In this document: positions 6,042-61,440 of the stretch, piece by piece
Numbering within the stretch: position 1 is the stretch's first letter
Layout: each line of letters opens with the position of its first letter
NCBI GenBank assembly: GCA_021904315.1
Contig: CM038920.1
Location: 10,726,001 to 10,790,000 of the forward strand
Direction of reading: 5' to 3'
DNA from: Sphagnum magellanicum
Taxonomy: Eukaryota > Streptophyta > Sphagnopsida > Sphagnales > Sphagnaceae
Length of the DNA: 64,000 nucleotides
Notes under the pieces: generated by a model
Databases searched by the model: none
What the model was told of the DNA's origin: nothing
What the model saw: only the letters and a program-made list of their open reading frames with translations
Position numbers and translations under genes: made by a program

Positions 6042-6955
6042 TGCCAAGCACCCTCAAACTCCTAGAAAGGCTCAAATGTGAATCCCAAAATGAAAACAAT
6101 GGAAGAAAAAGGAGTTGGGGCATGTTTCTAACTCTCAACACTTTTGGGGTAAGAAGGTGTGTTGGGGCTCCAAGATGGGGACTAAGAAAAGTGATAAACA
6201 AATTAATTATTCATAATGATCTGCATAATCCAAACAACAAGTTGGTTAATGTATAGTTGGAACATTTTTGGTGCACAAACACCACGGGCATACACAAATT
6301 CACAAAATTTATCACAGCCTAGATTTTGGGGAAGCCACCACCTTCCCTCTTATAATATTCTTTGTGATTTGCCATAGGGGCTACACCTAAATGTCATTTT
6401 TCCTAGGACTCCCAAATTAAGAATATCAAAAATTTCAAAATTGAGACTCTTGTCACTTTGGACGTTTATAATTTTTTGTGCAGACTTCCAATTGAATTGA
6501 GGTCTAAAGCAAAGTTATAGCCCTCATCGACAAGTTTCCAACAACATGTAGCACATTTCCTACATGCATTTAACTCAAGGTGATTCCTAACTTTTAATGA
6601 TCGGGAGTCAAATTGACACTTTGATTCTTGACCCTTTTTTCGGCCATAACTTGTGTTGTAAGTATTCAAATGGATAATGCAACCCCATTTTAGACATTTA
6701 AGCCTTAAGAAATTTTCAATGTATAAAAAAGTTTTCAATCCAATGAGTTTTAACCCTTCGAAACACTTTCTGAAAATTTGGGAGTCCATGGGAACTCTAA
6801 TTCCCAAAATGGGAATCCACTTAGGAGTGTGTGGGTTCATTCCCTCACACTCTTTTGCATTCTTGGGAGTGTGAATGTACTCTCGAGTTGCACTTTTGGT
6901 TTGCGCTTTTCCATGCCTTTACCTTGGTCACAATCCCAAGATTAAGGTTGTGATA
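6042..6955 (+). repeat. Solo LTR, family 1, copy A (decayed)
   Basis: Aligns along its length with the copies at 16204-17186 and 60623-61440. Shared blocks, in order: ACTCCT near the left end, GGGGAAGCCACCACCTTCCC, a TATA-like stretch, a GTGATTTGCC block, TCTAAAGCAAAGTT, TTTCCAAC, TTTTAATGATCGGGAGTCAA, GGCCATAACTTG and a terminal GGTTGTGATA where copy B has GGTTGCGACA. The final CA is changed to TA and no target duplication could be matched. It is the most diverged of the three copies, with much C-to-T change. The choice of left end (TGCCAAGC) is approximate. Orientation is given relative to copy B. Confidence 0.8.
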
Positions 6956-14490: not shown

Positions 14491-14784
14491 ACGATTAACA
14501 CTTTTAACAATTTTAACAATTTTGTAATCACGAGGTTGTCATGACGTGTAGTGTCGTGATGTATGGTGTTGTAAGGGTGTAAATATGTAGTAAACTCTAC
14601 TAAACAAAAAGACTAAAGCCAGTCAAAGGTATAAACTAATCAACCAAAAAGAGATGCACGCACACATATATATACAATGCACAAGAGGAAGCTGAGATGA
14701 AATTCTCGTGTATCCCCCCTAGACCTGAGCCGAGAAAAGCGTGGCATGGTCTGAATAGGAATCAAGGTGTTGTAGGAGAACATG

Positions 14785-15118: not shown

Positions 15119-16198
15119 CTAGAAATACACAAAATCACCAACATCAAATTGTTTCACCTTAGGTTTGTAACTACCACATTGTGTGTGTGCATACCGTAAG
15201 ATGTTTTGATGTTGTGCAATGGACAAGTTCTCCATGGCCATGCACATAACCCTCCTGACTAGAATAACCCTTTTTGTAATGACCCTAGCCCAAATGGCTA
15301 GGGAGTCCAAGTCCACAACCTGGTCCATTTGAACAACAATGGAAAAGGGTGGAATGGGATGTTTCCCAAAAAGTAAAAAGTAAGGAGAGAAATGAGACAA
15401 AGAAGCATGTTTGGACATCCTATAACCCATGGCAATGTAAAGGAGGGCTAGGTTCCAATCCTCTTTGTTTTTAATGAGGCAAATCTTTCGAAGTCCCTTC
15501 TTGCACATTTGAACCATCCTCTCTACAAGGCCATCAACTTGGGGATGATCTCTTGAAGTTCGATGATGTTAATGAAAGCATGGTCAAGCAAGTCTTGGAA
15601 TTTTCCCTTGAATTTTGATCCTTGATCAATAAGGCATTCAATGCAAGCCCCAAACCTACTTAGAACTTGTTGTAAGAAAGCATGGTTAGTGTTATGTGAT
15701 GACTTGTTTAGTAACACAACAAGCTCAACCCACTTTGAAAAATGCTCAATCATAATCATGATGTAAACATTACCCCTGGAGGTTTGTGGTAACTCTCCAA
15801 CAAAATCACATGACCAATAGTAAAACATGCCCTAAATAGGGAGTGGAGAAAGCATGAGCTGTTGAGAGGAGAAAGAAGTTCTCACTCTATCACATTGTTC
15901 ACACCTAGCAATGACATTTCGGACTTGAACATACATACCTCTCCAATGGTAATGAGGAGCGAGAATGCTATAAGTACGCTTAACTCCAAAGTGTCCAAAC
16001 TCTGAGTATACCTTTTAAATAAGACCAAGTTGTTCATGTGGTTGTGAAACCACTATGTTGCCTTGTGGTAAACATCAGACGAGGTGATTGTCCCTCCATG
16101 AGTAACGTTTGGACCATTGTTGTATGCGATCCCACTAACTTGATGTAACTTGGGGAGGGTATTCCCCATGTTAAAGAAACTTCAGAATGTCCAAGTCC
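15119..16198 (-). pseudogene. Integrase of the Ty3/gypsy-type element (frameshifted)
   Basis: Inserts the cDNA copy into the genome. The N-terminal zinc-binding part shows GHFGVKRTY and CEQCDRV (CxxC at about 15892-15903); the first His of the HHCC set is not evident. The catalytic core starts at SCDFVGELP (first Asp), followed by EHFSKWVELV, then LIDQGSKF (second Asp). After that the frame is lost near 15545-15565: a one-base change moves the rest (SRDHPQ...ERMVQ, which holds the catalytic Glu) into the neighbouring frame, open over 15119-15517. A TAG stop lies just before the core. The C-terminal part has the KVKQFDVGDFVYF stretch typical of the integrase tail. The right side is cut by the nested solo LTR. 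Confidence 0.9.
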
Positions 16199-16203
16199 TC
16201 CCA

Positions 16204-17186
16204 TGACGCACCCCCAACTCCTCAAGGGACTCAAATGTGAGCCCAAGTATAAAGCAACGGAATAAGGAGGAGTTGGAGCACGCTCCCTAGCTCACAACCC
16301 TTTGAGGGGTAGAGGGGCGGGTTGGAGCTCCGGGATGGGACTAGGAAGAGTTGACAAGCTTTAGTCACTCACACGGGCCTGCACACAACCCACACAAAGT
16401 GGTTAGTGCAAAGTTGGAGCACCCTTGGTGCTAGGACGAACCACGAGCAACACGGACACACAAGACTCACCACGGCCCGGACTTGGGGGAAGCCACCACC
16501 TTCCCCCTTATAGTATACTCTGTGACTCGTCGCGGGGGTGGCATCCAAATGGCCATTTTGTCCCGGGACTCCCGGGACTCCCGCGTGAGAGTCCCGAAAT
16601 AGCGCATTTTCGGGACTCCCGCGACTTTGAAGCTTCATAACTTTCGGAGCAGACCTCCGATCGACTCGCCATCTGAAGCAAAGTTGTAGGTCTCGTCAAG
16701 ACCTTTCCAACGGTATGTCGCACGTTTTCTGCAGCCAATTATTTCGGGTCGATTCTTGACTTTTAGTGGTCGGGAGTCAAAACTGGCAAACTCCCAGGAA
16801 TTCGATTCTCGACCCTTCTTTTGGTCATAACTTGTATTTCAGGTGTCCAAATGAGCAATGCGAGCCCATTTTAGATATCTACGCTTCAAGAGCTTTCGAA
16901 TGATATAAAGAACGCCACAATCCATTGAGGTTTGACCCCTGCAATCGCTCTCTGAAGCTTCGGGACTCCACCGGGACTCCACCGGGACTCCACTTCCCAA
17001 AGTGGGAGTTGCCTTGGGAGTGTGAGGGTTCACTCCCTCACACTTTCTAACACTTTCTCACACTCCCGGGAGTATGTGATGTGACTCCCAGGCTTCCTCT
17101 TACCTTAACTCCTGGGCTTTCCTTTGGCCCGCACCCTTGCAACCCCCCCCTTGCCTTAGTCGCAAGCCAAGGCTAGGGTTGCGACA
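16204..17186 (+). repeat. Solo LTR, family 1, copy B, nested in the retroelement
   Basis: 983 bp, beginning TGACGCACCC and ending GGTTGCGACA (TG...CA), flanked by a perfect 5-bp duplication TCCCA at 16199-16203 and 17187-17191. It has no coding domains, so it is a solo LTR left by LTR-LTR recombination. It splits the host element between RNase H and integrase, so it inserted later. It is GC-rich relative to the surroundings and contains runs of GGGACTCCC-type words. A TATA-like TTATAGTATAC near 16508-16518 after a pyrimidine-rich block suggests transcription in the + direction (inference). Confidence 0.95.
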
Positions 17187-17191
17187 TCCCA

Positions 17192-18714
17192 TATATCCAT
17201 AATGGGATGCTCAATTAGGTTACATTGTAGTAGTGCAAAATAACTAGATGCATAAGATACATGTATTGCTGGAATTTGGTCAAAATCTTGCTTGACTTTT
17301 GAAAAATCTTCAGACGTAATGAGGGGTCTCCACGACATGGTATTTGCATTCTGATGTGTAATATTAGGTCGGTGAATAACTTTGAATTCATACTCTTGAA
17401 GTATAAGCACCCAACGAACTAACTTACTAGTAAGTTTATCGTTGGTCATCCACCACTTGATAGGCTGATGGTTGATATACAAAGTGAAATTGGTGCTATA
17501 AAAATAGGGCTTGAAATGTATGACAGCCCATACAACAGCAAGGCACTCCCTTTCATATGAAGAGTAGTTGCTCTCAGCCTTGTCGTTGCTTCGGGATGCA
17601 TAAGCGATAACATATTCCTTGCTTTCTTCATCAAGTTGGCCAAGAATAGCTCCAATACCAAGAGCACTCGAATTAGTGTGTAGAATGAAGACCTTGTTGA
17701 AATTAGGTCTTCTCAGAATGGGGAACTCTGAAAGCTTTTCCTTGAGTGTGTTGAAAGCTTCCTGAACTTCATCATTCCATGTCCAAGCAACATCTTTTTT
17801 TAACAATGCATAGAGAGGATGAGCAATAGTACTAAAGTCTTGGACATAAATTTTGTAGTAATTACATAGTTCGATGAAACTCCTCAATGTGTGAACATCA
17901 TTAGGATTGGGCATCTCCAAAATGGCTACTACTTTGGCGCAATCAACCATAATACCATTTGATAAAATTCTATGTCCAAAGGTAGACTACTAAGGTGACA
18001 ACAAACTCACACTTTTTAAGATGGATCTTCATATTGGTTTCGTGGAGCCTCTTGAATAACTCTTCAAGATGAACCAAGTGCTGCAGGAGTCCCTTGCTAT
18101 GCACTAAAACGTCATCTATGTAACATTTCAGGAAATTTGCTGGTCTATGACTTGCTAAAAGAAGACAAGTGCATTCTTCAACCCAAAAGGCATCACAAGC
18201 CATTCCCACAACTTGTTGCTTCCATGGAATGTTGTTTTCTTTCGATCCTTCGCAACGAGCACAATCTAGTTGAAACCTTGCCTCAGATCCATAATTGTGA
18301 AAATGTTTGAATCTCCAATGCTATCAAATAGTTCTTTAGGGATGGACATGGGGTACTTGTCTTGAGGTGTAACTAGGTTCAAAGGCCTATAATCCTCGCA
18401 CATCTTTTTCTCAATCCATAATCTAACTTAATCCTTCTTTGTTGGCATTATTGTAGCGATTGCGAAATTAGAACTTGATGGTTGAATGAGATTAGCCTCA
18501 TGGAGCTTTTTACATCTTTCATCTACTAATTCCCACTCATGCTTGTTCAACCTATGCCTCCTCTGATAGATGGGGTCTCATCTGTAAGGTCTATAGAGAA
18601 GTGCATGGTCTTACACCTACCTAAGTCTTTCATTGAAAATGCGAACACATTCTTGTACTTAATTAACAAGTCTATGACCTGGTCTCTCTCCTTCTTGGTG
18701 AGTTGGTTCCCCAT
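17192..18714 (-). pseudogene. Reverse transcriptase and RNase H of the Ty3/gypsy-type element
   Basis: Reverse transcriptase begins near 18714 with a KNVFAFSMKDLG-like stretch. It continues through HEWELVDERCKKL, DYRPLNLVTPQDKYP, the active-site YIDD (about 18111-18122) and KCEFVV, then the thumb region FIELCNYYKIYVQDFS. RNase H follows: HTNSSALGIGAILGQ, YASRS, YSSYERECLAVVWAV, INHQPIKWW, and a C-terminal HQNANTMSWRPL. Two RNase H catalytic Asp positions are Asn (codons at 17672-17674 and 17471-17473), both G-to-A changes, while the Glu of SYERECLA is kept. Several stops and a frame break separate RT from the long RNase H frame (17950 down). Non-functional. Confidence 0.93.
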
Positions 18715-18989: not shown

Positions 18990-20320
18990 GTTAGCTGATT
19001 GAATAAGTGTTGGTGTTGTGTACATTTGAAAGAGTACACAGGTTACCAATAACCATGTAAGGGAGTTCATGTCCATGCCTCTCCCCAGTAGAGTGTTACG
19101 CTCCAATTTTGTCACCTTAATGTGACTAGTAATGCTAGCTTGGAACCCCATAACCCTTTATTTTTCTTTTAGGCTTGGTTCATCCCAAGTGGTTGAAGCA
19201 TGACGATACACCAAGCTTGGTCCATTTCCTTAAAAGGCATGTGCTCCTAGGAAAGAGACAAAGGTGGGCCAAACACCTCTTGGTTTTTGTATTATGTTCG
19301 CAAAAAACCAAGGAGGTTTCTCTTGCCTTGTAATTAGTTGGCAAGAGTTCTGATCATCCAATATTTGGGATGTGAAACTAATTATTTATACATTTTCCGT
19401 CAATTAAAGGAATCCATATCAACGATCATATTGTCATTACTTTTACTTTTTGAAATTCTTCTTAATCAGTTGAAATATACTTTTGTTTTTCGAAGTGGGT
19501 AAAATAAGAATCGCTCCTACATTTAAGGCTCCTTTTTAACCATTAGGTATGCCCCGGGATTTTATTAGGAAAGGGGGGAACAATCCCTTTGAATAGTGAG
19601 AACTCTTAACAAAACTTGTAACCTGCATTAGCAAAGTTAAACGTGGGTATGTAGCTCAGAAACGAACCTGCAAGTTGGGGTCTTTGATGGTGTATCTTAA
19701 AGCCAACTGCAGAACTAAGAGTGGCGCTAAGTTGGTCCACCAATTGCACAACCGGTGCGTATAGGAACTGCATTGTGCTGCATCAAATAGGAGTGACTCT
19801 CCAAGGTAATGCTTGACCAGTTTGTAGTGCTTTTAGATTTTCTCCCTCTGGTCAAGCTTAAAAGGGGTGTTCTCAATTACATAACCAAGCATAGGAGAAA
19901 TGGATTGAGCCCAAATGATCAATTGTATCATGTTTATGAAGAGACCAGATCTTGTGTCACTCAAGCCTTCTCCAAATCTAGTCGTTGAAAATCCTTGACA
20001 CTCCTAACCTGAAATGATGAGGTTGACGGGGACAAATAATTCTGTATGTTTCTTCTGAATTAGTTGTATGTCAGAGGGTAAAAATGTGAAACTAGTCTTC
20101 CATGCAATGGTTGCAAACTATTGTGGAAATTTGGTTGTGAACTCCCTCATTCTCGATGCCGCCACTTGCCTTGTAATAGGATCAATGTCTACGTAAAAAT
20201 ACTTCCGAACCACCATCCCTAACTGTAGTAAGGCTTTGAGACTTATACCAATACCACCAAAGAACTTTAGTAATGTAATCCCTTCCTTAGGTGGTCTCTA
20301 AGTGATTAATTGACGAAATA
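18990..20320 (-). pseudogene. Cytosine-5 DNA methyltransferase domain inside the retroelement
   Basis: Transfers a methyl group from S-adenosylmethionine to carbon 5 of cytosine. In order on the - strand: motif I KFFGGIG (20247-20267), with the following acidic KYFYVDIDP; motif IV SG*ECQGFS (19986-20012), with catalytic Cys codon at 19998-20000; SDTRSGLFINM; motif VI IENT (19866-19877); a motif VIII-like SSYTHRLCNWWTNLAP; then, after a presumed target-recognition stretch with many stops, WPTFVSF, RVMGFQ (motif IX region) and LGRGMDMNSL (motif X-like, 19061-19090). The span of about 440 codons fits a full catalytic domain. The A-x-x-x-S-Y-x-H-R-x4-W-T-N-L block is nearer Dnmt3/DRM-type than bacterial HhaI-type spacing (impression, not tested). 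The usual Pro before the catalytic Cys is Glu (GAG), which one transition does not explain. At least eight in-frame stops make it dead. Confidence 0.87.
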
Positions 20321-20464: not shown

Positions 20465-21419
20465 TTAAGCATAAGTTATTTCCTCTTCATTTCCCTTTAT
20501 CCATTCATGGCTAATTAGTTGGATGTATGAAATGGTGTGTGCTTCCTTGAGCATACAACTGTGAGCCATAGGACTATGGTTCCCATGTAAATCAAGGGGT
20601 ATGTATCCCAAGTGGTCACCATCAGTCTCCCAATCCATTCGGTAGTACACATGCTTGAACCAGTTATCAATTATGAAACTTGGTGGAAACAGGGCCTTTT
20701 GCCCAATGAGCACATCATAATTGGTGGCATTGGTGACTAAACATCTAACTTATTAACAAAACTCCTAATCTTTCATTGAAGTTAAGTGCAATCAAATCCG
20801 AGCATACCCCAAGTACCTCCTCTACGCTCCCACTAACAGTGCGAATCTACCTCATAGACTTCCATAGTTTAGAGTCAAGTATGCCCATCTTCTTGGTGAA
20901 TTGAACTTTAAGAATCACTAGTTGGGCACTTGTATCAAGAAGTACCACTTTGGGTGTATGTCCTCCCATTTGGATTGTTGACCCAGTATTGTCGACAATG
21001 GTAACTTTGGTGGTGATGGAAATTCTTTCACTAGGCACCACCTTCGAAAATGAGTGAGAGACTTTGTGGAGGGAATGGCTATCCATAACACCTTTGCTAA
21101 GTAACAAATCCACAAGTGAAGTGTTTTTAACTCCCTTCTGATATGTGAATGTAGATACAGAGGTAGGAAAGCCCACTAATTTAAACATGCTAAAACTAGT
21201 GACTAGATTACGAACGCCATCTGTAACACATGAGCCAATCGAATATCTTTCCAAGGTGTTGGATGGGACCTCTGTAGCATGTGGATAAGGGATTGGTAGA
21301 GGACCTGATGTAGTGTTCAAGGTATCCTCTAGTACTACAATCATGTCCCTGGTGCTTAGCTTGAAATCTTGAAAACTAAACGATGGTGTATTCATAAGCT
21401 TTTGCGTCACTTCATGCAT
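20465..21419 (-). pseudogene. Retroviral-type aspartic protease and linker of the element
   Basis: The - strand frame 20847-21419 ends in a stretch with KVTIVDNTGSTIQMGG and VVLLDTSAQLVILK (Asp codon near 20934-20939). This is the D-T-G-A active-site loop of retroviral-type proteases with the Gly replaced by Ser. Downstream, 20465-20713 continues with VLIGQ/ALFPPSFIIDNWF and a linker of unknown role (YYRMDWETDGDHLGYIPLDL), leading into the methyltransferase domain. Such proteases act as dimers that cut the Gag-Pol precursor. Loss of the Gly and the stops between the two frames make it inactive. Confidence 0.82.
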
Positions 21420-21946: not shown

Positions 21947-23437
21947 CTAAACTTGAATTGCATGGGCTTGAAGCACCTCCTTCTTGTTATCATTGTGCTC
22001 CTTCTTCTTAACATTCTTATTGGAATTACCTTTGGTGGGCAAAGCCTGAATGGAAGGTTGAAGTGCCTTGGCTTTTGGTTGAAGGACAACGGAAGATGCT
22101 GGTAGATTTTGCCATGGTAATCGGAGTTGTTTCCATTCCAGGAACTTGGCAAAACAGATAGCTTCCTGATGTCCCTCTTTCCCACAATAGTCACAAAAGA
22201 GATCCTCGGAAGGAATGTTGCACTCATTAGCTTTGTGGGCAGGATTGCCATAGTAGTTGCAAATAGGTAGGATGGGTGTAACCGAGTGCACTACTTTAAC
22301 ACTTGAAGAAGAATGTGATGATCTAATTAGTGCAACTAGTGTAGGTTGAGGCCTTAAATGTGATGGAGGCCTCATAGTACTGGCTTCATAGTGTGCATGA
22401 GCTAGTTTTAGCTTTTTGGAAATGTTGTACACATCCATCAAAATGTACGAATCTCCAAATTTTGTAAAAACATGTTGTAAAACTTGCACATGGAGTGTTA
22501 GAGTACCTTCCAATGAACGAAGATACCGGTGGGTAGCTTCCAGATCTGTGATGCTCTGGGTATTCTCTTTGAATTTGAAAAGCCTCCTGTAGAGCATCTT
22601 GAGGGTTTCATCTTTTTGTCGAGAGAAGCTGGCGAACTGCAGAATTTTTTTAGAACTTTTGACTAAAAATTCCAGCTCAAGAACTTGAAAGAATTCCCCC
22701 ACTGGATCAGCAAAAGCTCATGCATCAATGGTGGGAAGAATGTTTGCGGTAAGAACAATGAGTTGTTAAGGAAAAAGGTTTACTAAGGTAGGTACCGGGT
22801 CTGGATCATTGGGCATAGTCCCATGATGTATAATTGCAGCTTGTAATGCAGTTTGAGAGGCGATGGTGATGGCTATGGCGTAAACTAGATTAGGAATTTG
22901 GGTGATGCCCAAAATCCTTGCAGAATGTTACTCGTAGACATCCAATGCCACATAGTGCACATAATCGACCAATTAATTGAATACAAACACCTCGATGTAA
23001 TTAATGCCATACTTGAGTTCCAATTCACAAACCACAATTGAGAAAGTTGTTTTGAACTCCCTCAAAGAAATGGTACTTGGTCATCCGTTGAACTTCTTAA
23101 TTCTTCCAAAGGAATTGTTGACCTCCATGGTGTATATGGGTGTAAAGGTTACAAATTGGAGCGGAATATACAGTGATGGTGTGAAAGCAGGTGCAACAAC
23201 AGGTGTACCCCATTAATTAACCCCTCCAAATGGACTCTGATGTACCATTGATGTAGTGTAACCTCAACCTACATTCTTGGTAGAAATTGTATTCGATGAC
23301 GATGGTGTTGTAGATGTTTAATGGTACCATCGTGAAGATCGTGAGCTTAAAAAAATCAGCTCAAAGGATTGTGTGTTACTTCATAGCTGATACTTAGGCT
23401 TTCGTTGAAGGGTAGTGCTGTCATCATCTGAGGACAT
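21947..23437 (-). pseudogene. Gag with zinc knuckle of the Ty3/gypsy-type element
   Basis: The start was chosen at ATG 23437 because it opens MSSDDDSTTLQRK just inside the LTR and is in phase with the long open part (22702-21947). The capsid-like centre reads EFFQVLELEFLVKSSKKIL...LYRRLFKFKE. The nucleocapsid end has CDYCGKEGHQEAIC, a perfect C-x2-C-x4-H-x4-C knuckle, preceded by a damaged one, CNYYGNPAHKANEC (second Cys replaced by Tyr). Stops interrupt the first 245 codons, for example TGA at codon 19. Gag forms the particle that packages the element RNA. About 497 codons in total. Confidence 0.9.
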
Positions 23438-27200: not shown

Positions 27201-28030
27201 CATTGTAAAAAATACAATTGTTGATTGTGAGTAGCAACTTTGTATCCAACAACTTAAGTCAGTCATAGTAAATATTAGAGTTGTTGCTAAGAATAAGTAA
27301 GCAAGTGTGAATAAATCATCTACCTATTAAATATTGAGTAATGAATTTTTAAAAAAAAAACTTTTAGTACAACATACTCAATTACAAAATTTCAACATTG
27401 ATGAACAAGTAATTTTCCTTAACTTTCGACATTTCAAGAAGATTTTTTAATAAAAAAATTGACATTTTGAAAGTAATATAATTACTACTGAACCTGGAAA
27501 GGTACCTTTCTATGGTAATCTAAATATGGATGATTATACAGAAGCTATGTACTTGAAAGAAAATATATAATAAATGTGTTAAAAATATGTTAACCCATTG
27601 AAACTGTGCACGGGCCTCATATATATAATATAGGTGATACGGTTATTTTCAGTGTTACGTTCCAAAAAGTGGGCATCTGGAAAATTAATTTTTACCAATT
27701 GTGGTTTCTTTTTTCTTTTTCACTTAAACAATTTCAAACTCTTCAACAATGGTTCCTTCAAATGTTAAAAACCCATTGTCACATTTCAAATGCTGAGCTA
27801 AAAATGAGGTTCCTCAAAATTATTTGAGCCTTTGACCGTGTAGTCTATAGGATTAAACCTTTTTGAAAAAAAAATGAGCTTTCCTCATTTACAAGATTAT
27901 GCTACGCTGGAAGAGAGGTGTGAATTAAAAAAAATTATTGTAAAGTATTATGTTATATTAGCCAACGTGTGAGATAGGGCAATAACAATTTTTGAAAGAA
28001 TATTTCAGTAAATTAAAGGTATTTACACTT
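24240..28030. other. AT-rich intergenic DNA, nothing recognised
   Basis: Very low GC with many poly-T and poly-A runs and a short (AT)n at about 24664-24682. Only short frames without recognisable products occur. No structural RNA or element end was found. Confidence 0.6.
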
Positions 28031-29185
28031 TGAAAACTTTCCAATCTTGGAAAAGGTAAGATAATACAAGCTTTTCAAACTCATCAATCCAAGTAAAAGT
28101 AAAGTTAGATGATGAACATTTAACCTTCAATGTAAAAGTTGAGGTATATATGCACAATCTACAATATATTTATCACATATATATGGGTCACAATGTGAAA
28201 ATTTCACTCCAAAAATTTGAAACATTGTGACTCATGGATATGTGATGAATTGCCTTGGCCAGCCCATCAAATCCATAAAGAGCCTCAATGAGGTTCCTTA
28301 CCCAATACATAGAATATTGGGAATTTATTTTCCCATGCAAGTGTGATCATCTTAAATTGCAAAATAAAAACCTTACACATCTTACATGCACAATAATCTG
28401 TAAGGTCTCTATGTTTTGAAATCTTTCCAATCTTGGAAATGGTAAGATAATACAAGCTTTTCACACCCATCAATCTGAGTAATAGTAAAGTTAGATGATG
28501 AACATTTAACCTATTCATAACATAAAAGTTGAGATGAGTATAAAGAGTTTAAAACATTTTTGTCACATATATAAGTCACAATGCAAAAACTTCAAACCAA
28601 AAAATCAAAACATTGTGACTTGTGAATGTGTGATAAATCACCTTGGCCAGGTCCTCAAATTCAGAAAGAGCCTCAATGTCGTTCCTTACCGTACACATAA
28701 AGTATTGAGAATTTCTTTTCCCATGCAAAGGCGAGTGTCATAAATTGCAGAATCAAGACCTTACAGGTTTTCCATGCAAGACAATCTGTAAGGTCACTAT
28801 GTTTTGGAATCTTTCTAATCTTCAAAAAGGTAATATAATACAAGCTTTTTCAAACCCATCAATCTGATTAAAAGTAAAGCTACATGATGAACATTTAACC
28901 TATTCATAATGTACAAGTTGAGGTGAACATACACAGTTTATAACATAATTATAGATGAATCACAATGTGAAAATTCACACCAAAAGATCGAAACATCTTG
29001 ACTCATGTATATGTGGTAAATCATCTTTCTCAGGCCCTCAAATCCAAAAAGGGCCTCAATGGGGTTCCTTACCCTATACATAAAGAATTGGGAATTTCTT
29101 TTCCCATGCATATGCGAGCACCCTAAACTGCAAAATCAAGAGCTTACGGGTTTTCCATGCAAGACAATCTTTCAGTGGATTTCCC
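28031..29185. repeat. Tandem triplication, unit about 387 bp
   Basis: Three direct copies start at 28031, 28417 and 28805 with TGAAAACTTTCCAATC, TGAAATCTTTCCAATC and TGGAATCTTTCTAATC (offsets 386 and 388). Each copy then has AATACAAGCTTTT, AGATGATGAACATTTAACC, a GTCACAATG...CATTGTGACT inverted pair, TCAATG.GGTTCCTTACC and TTTTCCCATGCA. Copies differ by perhaps 15-20 percent by eye. Non-coding. Confidence 0.92.
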
Positions 29186-32205: not shown

Positions 32206-32241
<36 letters not shown>

Positions 32242-33504
32242 ACAGAGGCGCATACAATTGGGATCAACTATGGGCAAGTTGCGGACAATCTTCCTGCCCC
32301 AGCTGTTGCTGTGTCACTCATCAAAAGCCTGGGAATCGGGAGAGTGCGGATCTATGACTCTGATGCTGCCACCCTAACTGCTCTGGGGAATTCTGGCCTA
32401 CAAGTCACAATTGGGATGGGAAACGATGTCATTCCATCGCTTGCAGCTAGTGCAGTAGCAGCTGATCAATGGATTCTAGCAAACGTGGTTGCATATCTTC
32501 CTGGAACAAACATCACAGTGATTCTGGTTGGAAATGAGCTTTTCACAGATTACACACTTACAGCTGTGTGGACACAACTGGTTCCAGCTATGCAAAACCT
32601 TCAAGCCAGTTTGGTGAACCGGGGTCTTTCATCAACGATCAAGATTTCAACAGCTATTGAGAATAATATCCTTTCATGGTCTTCTCCACCCTCGAATGGC
32701 TCATTCCGAGCAGATATTGCGGTTCCTGTCATCACACCCCTGCTTCAGTTTCTGAATGACACAGGATCTTATCTGTATGTGAATGCGTACCCATACTTTG
32801 GTTGGGTTGACGACCCTGGGTACATTCCATTGGATTACGCACTCTTCACTCTAACCACTCCCTTTATTCAAGACGGTCCATACAATTACTTTTACTTGCT
32901 AGATGCACAGCTTGATGCTCTTGCATCAGCCATGGAGCGTATTGGGTTTGACTATGTGCGGCTTGCAGTTAGCGAATGTGGATGGCCAACACTGGGGACC
33001 ATAGGAGCCAATGTAAGTGATGCACAAACCTTCAACCAGAATTTGGTTGACTACATACTCAGTAATCCTACCGTGGGTACTCCTCGAAGACCCCAAGTTT
33101 TCATACCCACTTACATCTTTGCTCTATTCAATGAGGACTTGAAACCTGGAGGTGTTGCTGAACAGAATTGGGGGATTTTGTATGCCAATGGCTCTCAGAA
33201 GTACCCACTTGATTTGACAGCAGATGTGCCTTGGGAAAGCCCTGCCCCATTAGTTTCTCCTCCCACAAGTGCTCCATTGGGGTTACCACCAACATCTCAA
33301 GCTCCATCATCAGGTTTTACAGCAGCTTCTCGCTTGCCTCTGTCACCAGGCTCTCCCCCAATTTCTGGCCTTGCTCCTCCAAGTGAAAGCCCCATTTCTT
33401 CCATTCCTGGGGGTGCAGAACTTTGCCGAGCTACTAGATCAACTTTACTACTTCCTTTTGCCCTTTCCCTTCTAGCTGCAACTTTGTTTTATTTTCAGCA
33501 GTAA
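31908..33504 (+). CDS. Glucan endo-1,3-beta-glucosidase (GH17), GPI-anchored type, two exons
   Basis: Hydrolyses internal bonds of 1,3-beta-glucan (callose), probably at the cell surface. Exon 1 is 31908-32046 and exon 2 is 32246-33504. The 199-bp GT-AG intron splits codon 47 (G|AG), giving 465 residues. ATG 31908 was chosen for its context (AAGATGG); an in-frame ATG at 31851 would add 19 residues. A hydrophobic segment (about 26-38) acts as signal peptide, and the mature domain starts near HTIGINYGQ. The likely proton donor is Glu144 in VGNELFTD and the nucleophile Glu290 in SECGWPT. After residue about 390 comes a Pro/Ser-rich linker and a hydrophobic tail (LLLPFALSLLAATLFYF) with no X8/CBM43 module. 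That layout matches GPI-anchored GH17 enzymes, some of which act on callose at plasmodesmata. No disruption seen. Confidence 0.94.
32207..32238. repeat. (TG)16 microsatellite at the GH17 splice acceptor
   Basis: Sixteen TG units end seven bases before exon 2 and occupy the place of the usual pyrimidine tract; the intron closes with TACACAG. Slippage would change the 3' splice-site context. It also creates a false in-frame run of Cys-Val codons in unspliced frames. Confidence 0.95.
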
Positions 33505-60622: not shown

Positions 60623-61440
60623 TGTCGCAACCCCACTTTGGGGCAAAGTGAGAGAATGCAACTCCCACTCCCAAAAGTGGAGACTTGGAGTCCTCCGGGA
60701 CTCCCGAAAATTCAGAAGACGATTTGAGGGGTCAAATCTCCTCGCCTTGGTGCGTTTTTTATATTAATGGAAAGCTCTTGAAGTGTAGATGTCCAAATGG
60801 CCTCACATTGCCCATTCGGACATTTGTAGCTCAAGTTATGGGCAAAAGAAGGGTCGGGACTCAAACTGCCAGTTTGACTCCCGACCACTAAAAGTCAGGA
60901 ATTGACCTCTTCCCGACATTGCCTCAAGGAGTGCGACACGACGTTGGAAAGCTTTTGACGAGAGCTACAACTTTGATTCAAGACTCGTCCTGATTCGAGC
61001 TCGGGGCGAGGAGCTGTGGCTGTTCAAAGTCCCGGGACTCCAACCTGGGACAATTTTGAGACTCCCACTTGGGAGTCTTGGGAAAAAAGGCCATTTGGAT
61101 GTAGCCTCGGCGAAGAGCTGCAGAGAATACTATATGGGGGAAGGTGGTGACTTCCCCCGAGTCCAGGCCGTGGTGAGTCAAGTAGTCCAAGTTGCCCGTG
61201 GCTTGTCCCAACACTTAAGGGTGTTCCCGAATGTGAACTAACCCTCTTGTGGTTGGTTTTGGATGCAGATTCGTGCTTGATTTTTTAATCCATCTTCCTA
61301 GTCTAATCCCGGGACTTTTAGCACGCCCTCTACCCCTCTTTAGTGCTGCAAGTCGGGAGCGCCCCTCAAGTCCCACTTTTTCGCAACTCAACATAATTGG
61401 ACCCTCAAGTGGGTTCAATCCGGGACTTGGGAGTGCGTCA
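60623..61440 (-). repeat. Solo LTR, family 1, copy C
   Basis: 818 bp, on + beginning TGTCGCAACC and ending GAGTGCGTCA, so on - it runs TGACGCACTC...GGTTGCGACA, the same ends as copy B. A perfect 5-bp duplication TCCTT flanks it (60618-60622 and 61441-61445). Inner blocks shared with copy B (inverted) include GGGAGTTGC-type words, AGTCCCGGGACT, AAGAGGTGG/GAAGGTGGTGACTTCCCCC and AAAGCTTTTGACGAGAGCTA. It is shorter than copy B through internal deletions. Frames over it (60685-60891, 61056-61659) are not genes. Confidence 0.94.

Follow-up and report, generated by a model that had tools for sequence, protein, structure and literature searches.

A stretch of 64,000 nucleotides from Sphagnum magellanicum (assembly GCA_021904315.1, contig CM038920.1, positions 10,726,001 to 10,790,000; hereafter the window) was found to carry, on its minus strand, a decayed Ty3/gypsy retrotransposon with a cytosine-5 DNA methyltransferase (MTase) inside its polyprotein. 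The element runs from the start of the Gag match at 23128 to the end of a PHD finger at 14780, and its domains follow one another on one strand in the order Gag, protease (PR), MTase, reverse transcriptase (RT), RNase H and integrase (INT). This is the Ty3/gypsy order of PR, RT, RNase H and INT, with INT last; RT, RNase H and INT are also arranged in this way in the relative P0170. A preliminary description of this DNA had placed the MTase between PR and RT on the same strand, and the positions of the Pfam and tblastn domain matches confirm this. We regard it as nearly certain, for identity and anatomy together, that the MTase belongs to a bryophyte Ty3/gypsy family with the polyprotein Gag-PR-MTase-RT-RNaseH-INT. 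The window copy is a dead member of this family, with stops found by tblastn in the matches of every domain.

Frame reading placed the C5-MTase motifs in a single minus-strand frame from 20282 to about 19010, with in-frame stops present: GITLLKFFGGIG (from 20282), KYFYVDIDP, ECQGFS, VIENTPF, SYTHRLCNWWTNL, MGFQ and LGRGMDMNSL, corresponding to motifs I, IV, VI, VIII and IX-X in that order. The catalytic Cys of motif IV and the Glu of motif VI are both kept. The open relative P0001 aligned by tblastn to 20360-19665 (79% identity, E 4.6e-133) and 19370-18783 (74% identity, E 1.1e-110), with no read-through needed; the MTase match is therefore beyond chance, and the motifs reported in the preliminary description are borne out. 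Its assignment of the whole of 18990-20320 to the MTase held for two parts, namely 20282-19665 with motifs I, IV, VI and VIII (frame reading, P0001 tblastn and PF00145) and 19370-19010 with the motif IX-X region (P0001 tblastn). The 294 bases between them (19664-19371, minus strand) are an insert, which falls between residues 297 and 298 of P0001, is missing from both P0001 and P0096, and has no second copy in the 64-kb window by self-search.

When the window MTase was read through, with X at stops, and used as a protein query, 95 of 3045 candidates matched at E <= 0.01, with a top E of 4.2e-160. The PF00145 profile search proposed in the preliminary description gave a divided answer: the window MTase alone scored 20.8 bits (E 2.9e-4), and, being broken, fell slightly short of the curated cut-off of 22, whereas the cut-off was exceeded by P0001 (36.6 bits) and P0096 (36.5 bits). 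Of the 12 relatives aligned in A2, 11 matched the profile at E <= 0.01. DNMT3 chains ranked first among solved families both by profile and by the predicted fold of an open relative, and the domain is unpermuted; the predicted enzyme is thus of the DNMT3 type. A DRM identity was rejected, since the DRM motif order is circularly permuted and motif I here precedes IV, VI, VIII, IX and X in one frame.

Relatives were collected in three protein searches, which gave 95 matches at E 0.01, 693 at E 0.01 (the best 120 of 693 listed) and 18 at E 1. Open frames were found for Gag-PR-MTase in P0167 (1214 aa), for PR-MTase in P0029 and in P0028 of the liverwort Calypogeia fissa, for MTase-RT-RNaseH in P0096 (820 aa), and for MTase-RT-RNaseH-INT in P0170 (1217 aa; MTase identity 39%). 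Because relatives share one open reading frame (ORF) with Gag and PR on one side of the MTase and with RT and RNase H on the other, the MTase is integral to the element. These shared frames, the Sphagnum and Calypogeia contigs that carry the named matches, and a plant GH17 gene about 9 kb from the element support the earlier proposal of a C5-MTase inside the Pol of a land-plant Ty3/gypsy element, and no full-length relative without the MTase span was seen among the relatives from the protein searches. Over 20360-19665 or part of it, the window MTase is 79% identical to P0001 and P0096, 65% to P0167 and 55% to the Calypogeia proteins. By themselves, this closeness to Sphagnum-like copies and the plant-type GH17 gene of the window would suggest a moss host, probably Sphagnum.

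The named matches among those listed come from S. magellanicum (P0043, P0076), S. balticum (P0047), S. troendelagicum (P0095), S. compactum (P0117) and C. fissa (P0028, P0123). The other listed matches are metagenome or assembly proteins, except P0169. Contamination is unlikely, as the named matches sit on Sphagnum and Calypogeia contigs of 13.5 to 66.6 Mb. P0043 and P0076, annotated as "hypothetical protein" gene models, resemble deleted retroelement copies rather than host genes. In the JGI protein P0172 an integrase zinc-binding domain comes immediately after the MTase, without an intervening RT; either its domain order differs or it derives from a deletion. P0169, a retroelement-type MTase filed under a metagenome-assembled genome of Candidatus Obscuribacterales, may be a eukaryotic sequence that contaminates that bin.

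Over deep time the MTase has been preserved no less well than the protease region, as judged from pairwise identities between MTases and between PR-linker regions. These were 73% and 65% for P0167 against Calypogeia, 43% and 39% for P0167 against P0168 (Gag 20%), and 35% and 30% for P0167 against P0173 (Gag 23%). Residues were counted by alignment column over 176 rows, of which 154 are Sphagnum-like, that is, all rows outside a list of 22 deep relatives. The catalytic Cys is kept in 111 of 113 rows, the motif VI Glu in 86 of 93 and the motif VIII His in 83 of 84.

In the S. magellanicum proteins P0043 and P0076, encoded on different contigs, a PHD finger follows on from the INT C-terminus (PF00628, E 8.4e-10 and 1.5e-10, respectively). 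The C4HC3 pattern is full in P0076, stops short of the last ligands in P0043, and is no longer intact in the window, where the decayed finger (14920-14780, minus strand) has lost several zinc ligands. The window INT-PHD junction lies in one frame, and residues 183-319 of P0076, covering the INT tail and the PHD finger, match 15175-14765 at 74% identity over 137 residues. A PHD finger follows INT in at least three loci of the family, and the recurrence of the same fusion in three loci disfavours a chance gene fusion, with the caveat that both S. magellanicum gene models have internal element deletions. The best-scoring solved PHD fingers were those of KMT2D, an MLL3 homologue, JARID1D, ubi-d4 and ATXR5. 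No chromodomain was found at E 1e-3 in the one tail examined, the 125 aa of P0076, which matched PF00628 instead (E 6.4e-11); on that tail, the element was not assigned to the chromoviruses. We know of no MTase in the Tcn1-like chromoviruses. Like the present element, these moss Ty3/gypsy elements have a module that reads chromatin behind the integrase (PMC2864245, PMC3350952), but the module is a chromodomain and not a PHD finger. Ginger1 DNA transposons are described as able to bear a PHD finger after a gypsy-like integrase (PMC2836005).

The decay of the window copy was measured against a Sphagnum-like consensus of the MTase taken as ancestor. Among 66 amino-acid differences, 49 can arise only by a single C>T or G>A step and 3 only by the reverse, with 7 requiring a transversion, 5 mixed and 2 needing more steps; the bias of 49 versus 3 has p 2.6e-9 against the opportunity ratio. 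The same bias is weaker in the pooled Sphagnum-like variants (237 versus 103). By context, over the 54 differences with exactly one such step, the cytosines lost were 7 of 31 in CG, 13 of 50 in CHG and 34 of 376 in CHH (CG and CHG versus CHH, p 2.5e-4). Such a pattern would be the expected outcome of long deamination of 5-methylcytosine in plant contexts, and suggests that the window copy itself was methylated. The decay fits a silenced copy, whichever enzyme methylated it; it speaks against the MTase having let this copy escape methylation.

As the best explanation of the element's architecture we propose self-methylation, towards which we lean with some reserve. Made within Pol, the MTase would be packaged with RT into the particle, where it or a processed product would place 5-methylcytosine on the double-stranded cDNA of the element itself or on the fresh insertion. 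Host maintenance enzymes would then preserve that mark. New copies would then look host-methylated from the outset and would be damped, so that burst activity is traded for persistence. The PHD finger may anchor the integrase to the tails of histone H3, in the way that chromoviruses use their chromodomains. A fuller version, which we offer tentatively as doubtful on balance, is a long-lived bryophyte writer-reader retrotransposon in which a de novo MTase with an altered (Glu-Cys) site and an integrase with a histone-reading PHD finger together choose chromatin and set the element's own methylation. If true, a parasite would thereby have arrived again at the combination known from animal DNMT3, catalysis together with the H3-reading ADD domain.

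Several observations weigh against self-methylation. To our knowledge, a Pro before the catalytic Cys is near-universal in C5-MTases. Here 90 of 111 rows have Glu at that position, 8 have some other residue, and the 13 with Pro are all distant relatives; Glu-Cys occurs in P0028 and P0123 of Calypogeia and also in P0170 and P0172, which are distant. Glu at this position may weaken catalysis, and the placing of the domain in the C5-MTase family without the usual Pro draws on profile, predicted fold and the other motifs. Only 66 of 83 rows retain the first Arg of motif VIII. The MTases of P0096 and P0170 are 39% identical, less than their RT (60%) and RNase H (64%). Protein variants among the 154 Sphagnum-like rows gave no sign of present purifying selection: those falling in deep-conserved columns were 58 of 200 for variants in at least 4 copies, 54 of 222 for 2-3 copies and 142 of 530 for singletons, against an expected fraction of 0.293, and 20 of the 66 differences of the window copy fell there, with the same expectation. 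Since the variants ignore deep-conserved columns, most Sphagnum-like copies in the data are probably relics. No special CpG depletion of the element relative to its surroundings was seen: the observed/expected ratio was 0.40 both for the element and for its MTase, compared with 0.38 over the window as a whole, 0.18 and 0.24 on the two flanks and 0.32 in a GH17 gene, and the test used in PMC5890265 therefore lends self-methylation no CpG-based support. Self-blastn and a repeat search found no pair of long terminal repeats (LTRs) around 14.7-23.2 kb, and the copy is old. Finally, the comparable KnitGypsy-Dnmt3 of Klebsormidium nitens gave no methylation in yeast, a result that its authors describe as inconclusive (PMC5890265).

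The Glu-Cys site and the lack of observed activity of the KnitGypsy MTase in yeast favour the strongest rival, an improbable reading to be taken seriously, in which the domain is retained without methylating. It would bind nucleic acid or S-adenosylmethionine or serve as a structural part of Pol, the change from Pro to Glu marking lost or altered catalysis. A mere scaffold, however, would have no need of the Cys, Glu and His that are kept so consistently. We consider it unlikely that the MTase acts outward, by changing the methylation of the host or of rival elements or by disturbing small-RNA-directed silencing; an MTase once made could act on any DNA, and effects on the host methylome are discussed for Symbiodinium (PMC5890265), these being the sole points in its favour, whereas the decay of the window copy resembles that of a methylated transposon. 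There is little to recommend the view that the MTase is a passenger, captured once, of no benefit and now decaying. The indifference of Sphagnum-like variants to deep-conserved columns and the inconstant motif VIII Arg would suit it, but the MTase occupies the same place in elements only 35-43% identical, conserved as much as or more than the protease region, and a passenger would have been lost over such divergence. That a host DNMT3 pseudogene or unrelated insertion merely happens to sit in this copy, which does contain two unrelated inserts, is extremely improbable and was rejected, because relatives in other genomes carry the MTase in common ORFs with PR and with RT, barring chimeric assembly of every one of them.

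The bryophyte element can be compared with known systems. The algal precedents for MTase capture by retrotransposons that the preliminary description named are correct according to PMC5890265. The KnitGypsy-Dnmt3 of K. nitens described there has a DNMT3-type domain in a Gypsy Pol with Ka/Ks below 0.2. Described as an LTR Gypsy element, it resembles the bryophyte element in that its Pol ORF includes a DNMT3-type domain without introns or rearrangement, and its silent copies are reported to be methylated; it differs in its charophyte algal host and in its repeats, whose arrangement is described as DIRS-like, and "PHD" does not occur in the main text (PMC5890265). The comparison with KnitGypsy-Dnmt3 covers its published description. 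No Klebsormidium names occurred among the matches listed (95; best 120 of 693; 18).

In dinoflagellates, SymbioDIRS-Dnmt3 and SymbioLINE-Dnmt are likewise retroelements with a C5-MTase, located in Pol in SymbioDIRS, whose MTase is reported to methylate CG in yeast; they are of the DIRS and LINE classes, not Ty3/gypsy, and are held by the authors to be independent of the charophyte case (PMC5890265). Ty3/Gypsy and DIRS elements encoding DAM or DCM are described from many other eukaryotes and also encode DNA methylases (PMC6338049). Plant DNMT3 and DRM have a DNMT3-type catalytic domain too, but are host genes, and DRM is circularly permuted, unlike the domain of the element (PMC6453930). According to a 2019 paper, no transposon methylases occur in land plants such as tracheophytes, a premise from which it develops a scenario of loss (PMC6338049); a 2025 survey cites the streptophyte and dinoflagellate cases (PMC12344493). 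Among the open-licence PMC papers listed by the literature searches, none was seen to report a DNMT in a land-plant retrotransposon or an INT-PHD fusion in Ty3/gypsy. As far as seen in that literature, three features are new: the hosts, which are mosses and a liverwort, the Glu-Cys sequence at the active site, and the PHD tail of INT. The last two are each a testable novelty. The bryophyte element narrows the land-plant gap, methylase transposons having crossed into, or persisted in, land plants. Mosses offer a tractable setting in which to ask whether a transposon gains from methylating itself, and, further, whether host methylation pathways evolved against elements writing the same mark.

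The remaining parts of the window element, all on the minus strand, were located as follows. Gag (23128-21938) is decayed and matches P0167 residues 1-397 by tblastn at 66% identity with 6 stops. Its CCHC-like motifs were recognised by eye near 22261-22150, and PF00098 on the window ORF gave E 0.29; the putative Gag is accordingly named from position, these motifs and homology to P0167, the Pfam match being without significance. The Gag-PR spacer, PR (LLDTSAQ near 20942) and the PR-MTase linker occupy 21938-20366 and are frameshifted (tblastn with P0167 398-787 and 798-925 and P0029 1-484). PF13975 gave E 0.11 on the window ORF, and was above the cut-off in P0028 (31.4 bits) and below it in P0029 and P0167. 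The MTase-RT linker lies at 19009-18575 (tblastn of P0001 and P0096), followed by a decayed RT with the motif CYIDDVLVHS at 18574-17873 (tblastn with P0096 449-820 and P0080 212-449; PF00078 in P0096 and P0080). RNase H lies at 17779-17390 (PF17919, E 4e-34, and PF17917, E 5.2e-34, in ORF 17156-17950). The INT zinc-binding and core domains are at 16218-15595 (tblastn with P0170 1004-1214; PF00665, E 6.4e-10, in ORF 15523-15828), and the end of the core and the C-terminal domain are at 15568-14930 (tblastn with P0043 340-539 and P0076 183-319).

Between RNase H and INT a nested repeat, to which no strand was assigned, occupies 16208-17044. It belongs to a dispersed repeat of about 0.8 kb with three copies in the window, and by blastn the other two (6048-6851 and 60655-61338) are 69% and 71% identical to the nested one. 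Only this repeat and the 294-bp sub-insert look foreign to the window copy. A tRNA-Met primer site was not found (25 primer-like matches versus 36.8 expected), no sister DNA copies were found in the viral contig and genome contig collections scanned, and no RNA family reached the gathering threshold in the window. A tandem array of three copies with a period of 388 bases lies at 28029-29170. About 9 kb from the element, an ORF on the plus strand (32206-33504) encodes a plant GH17 beta-1,3-glucanase (PF00332, E 1.1e-79).
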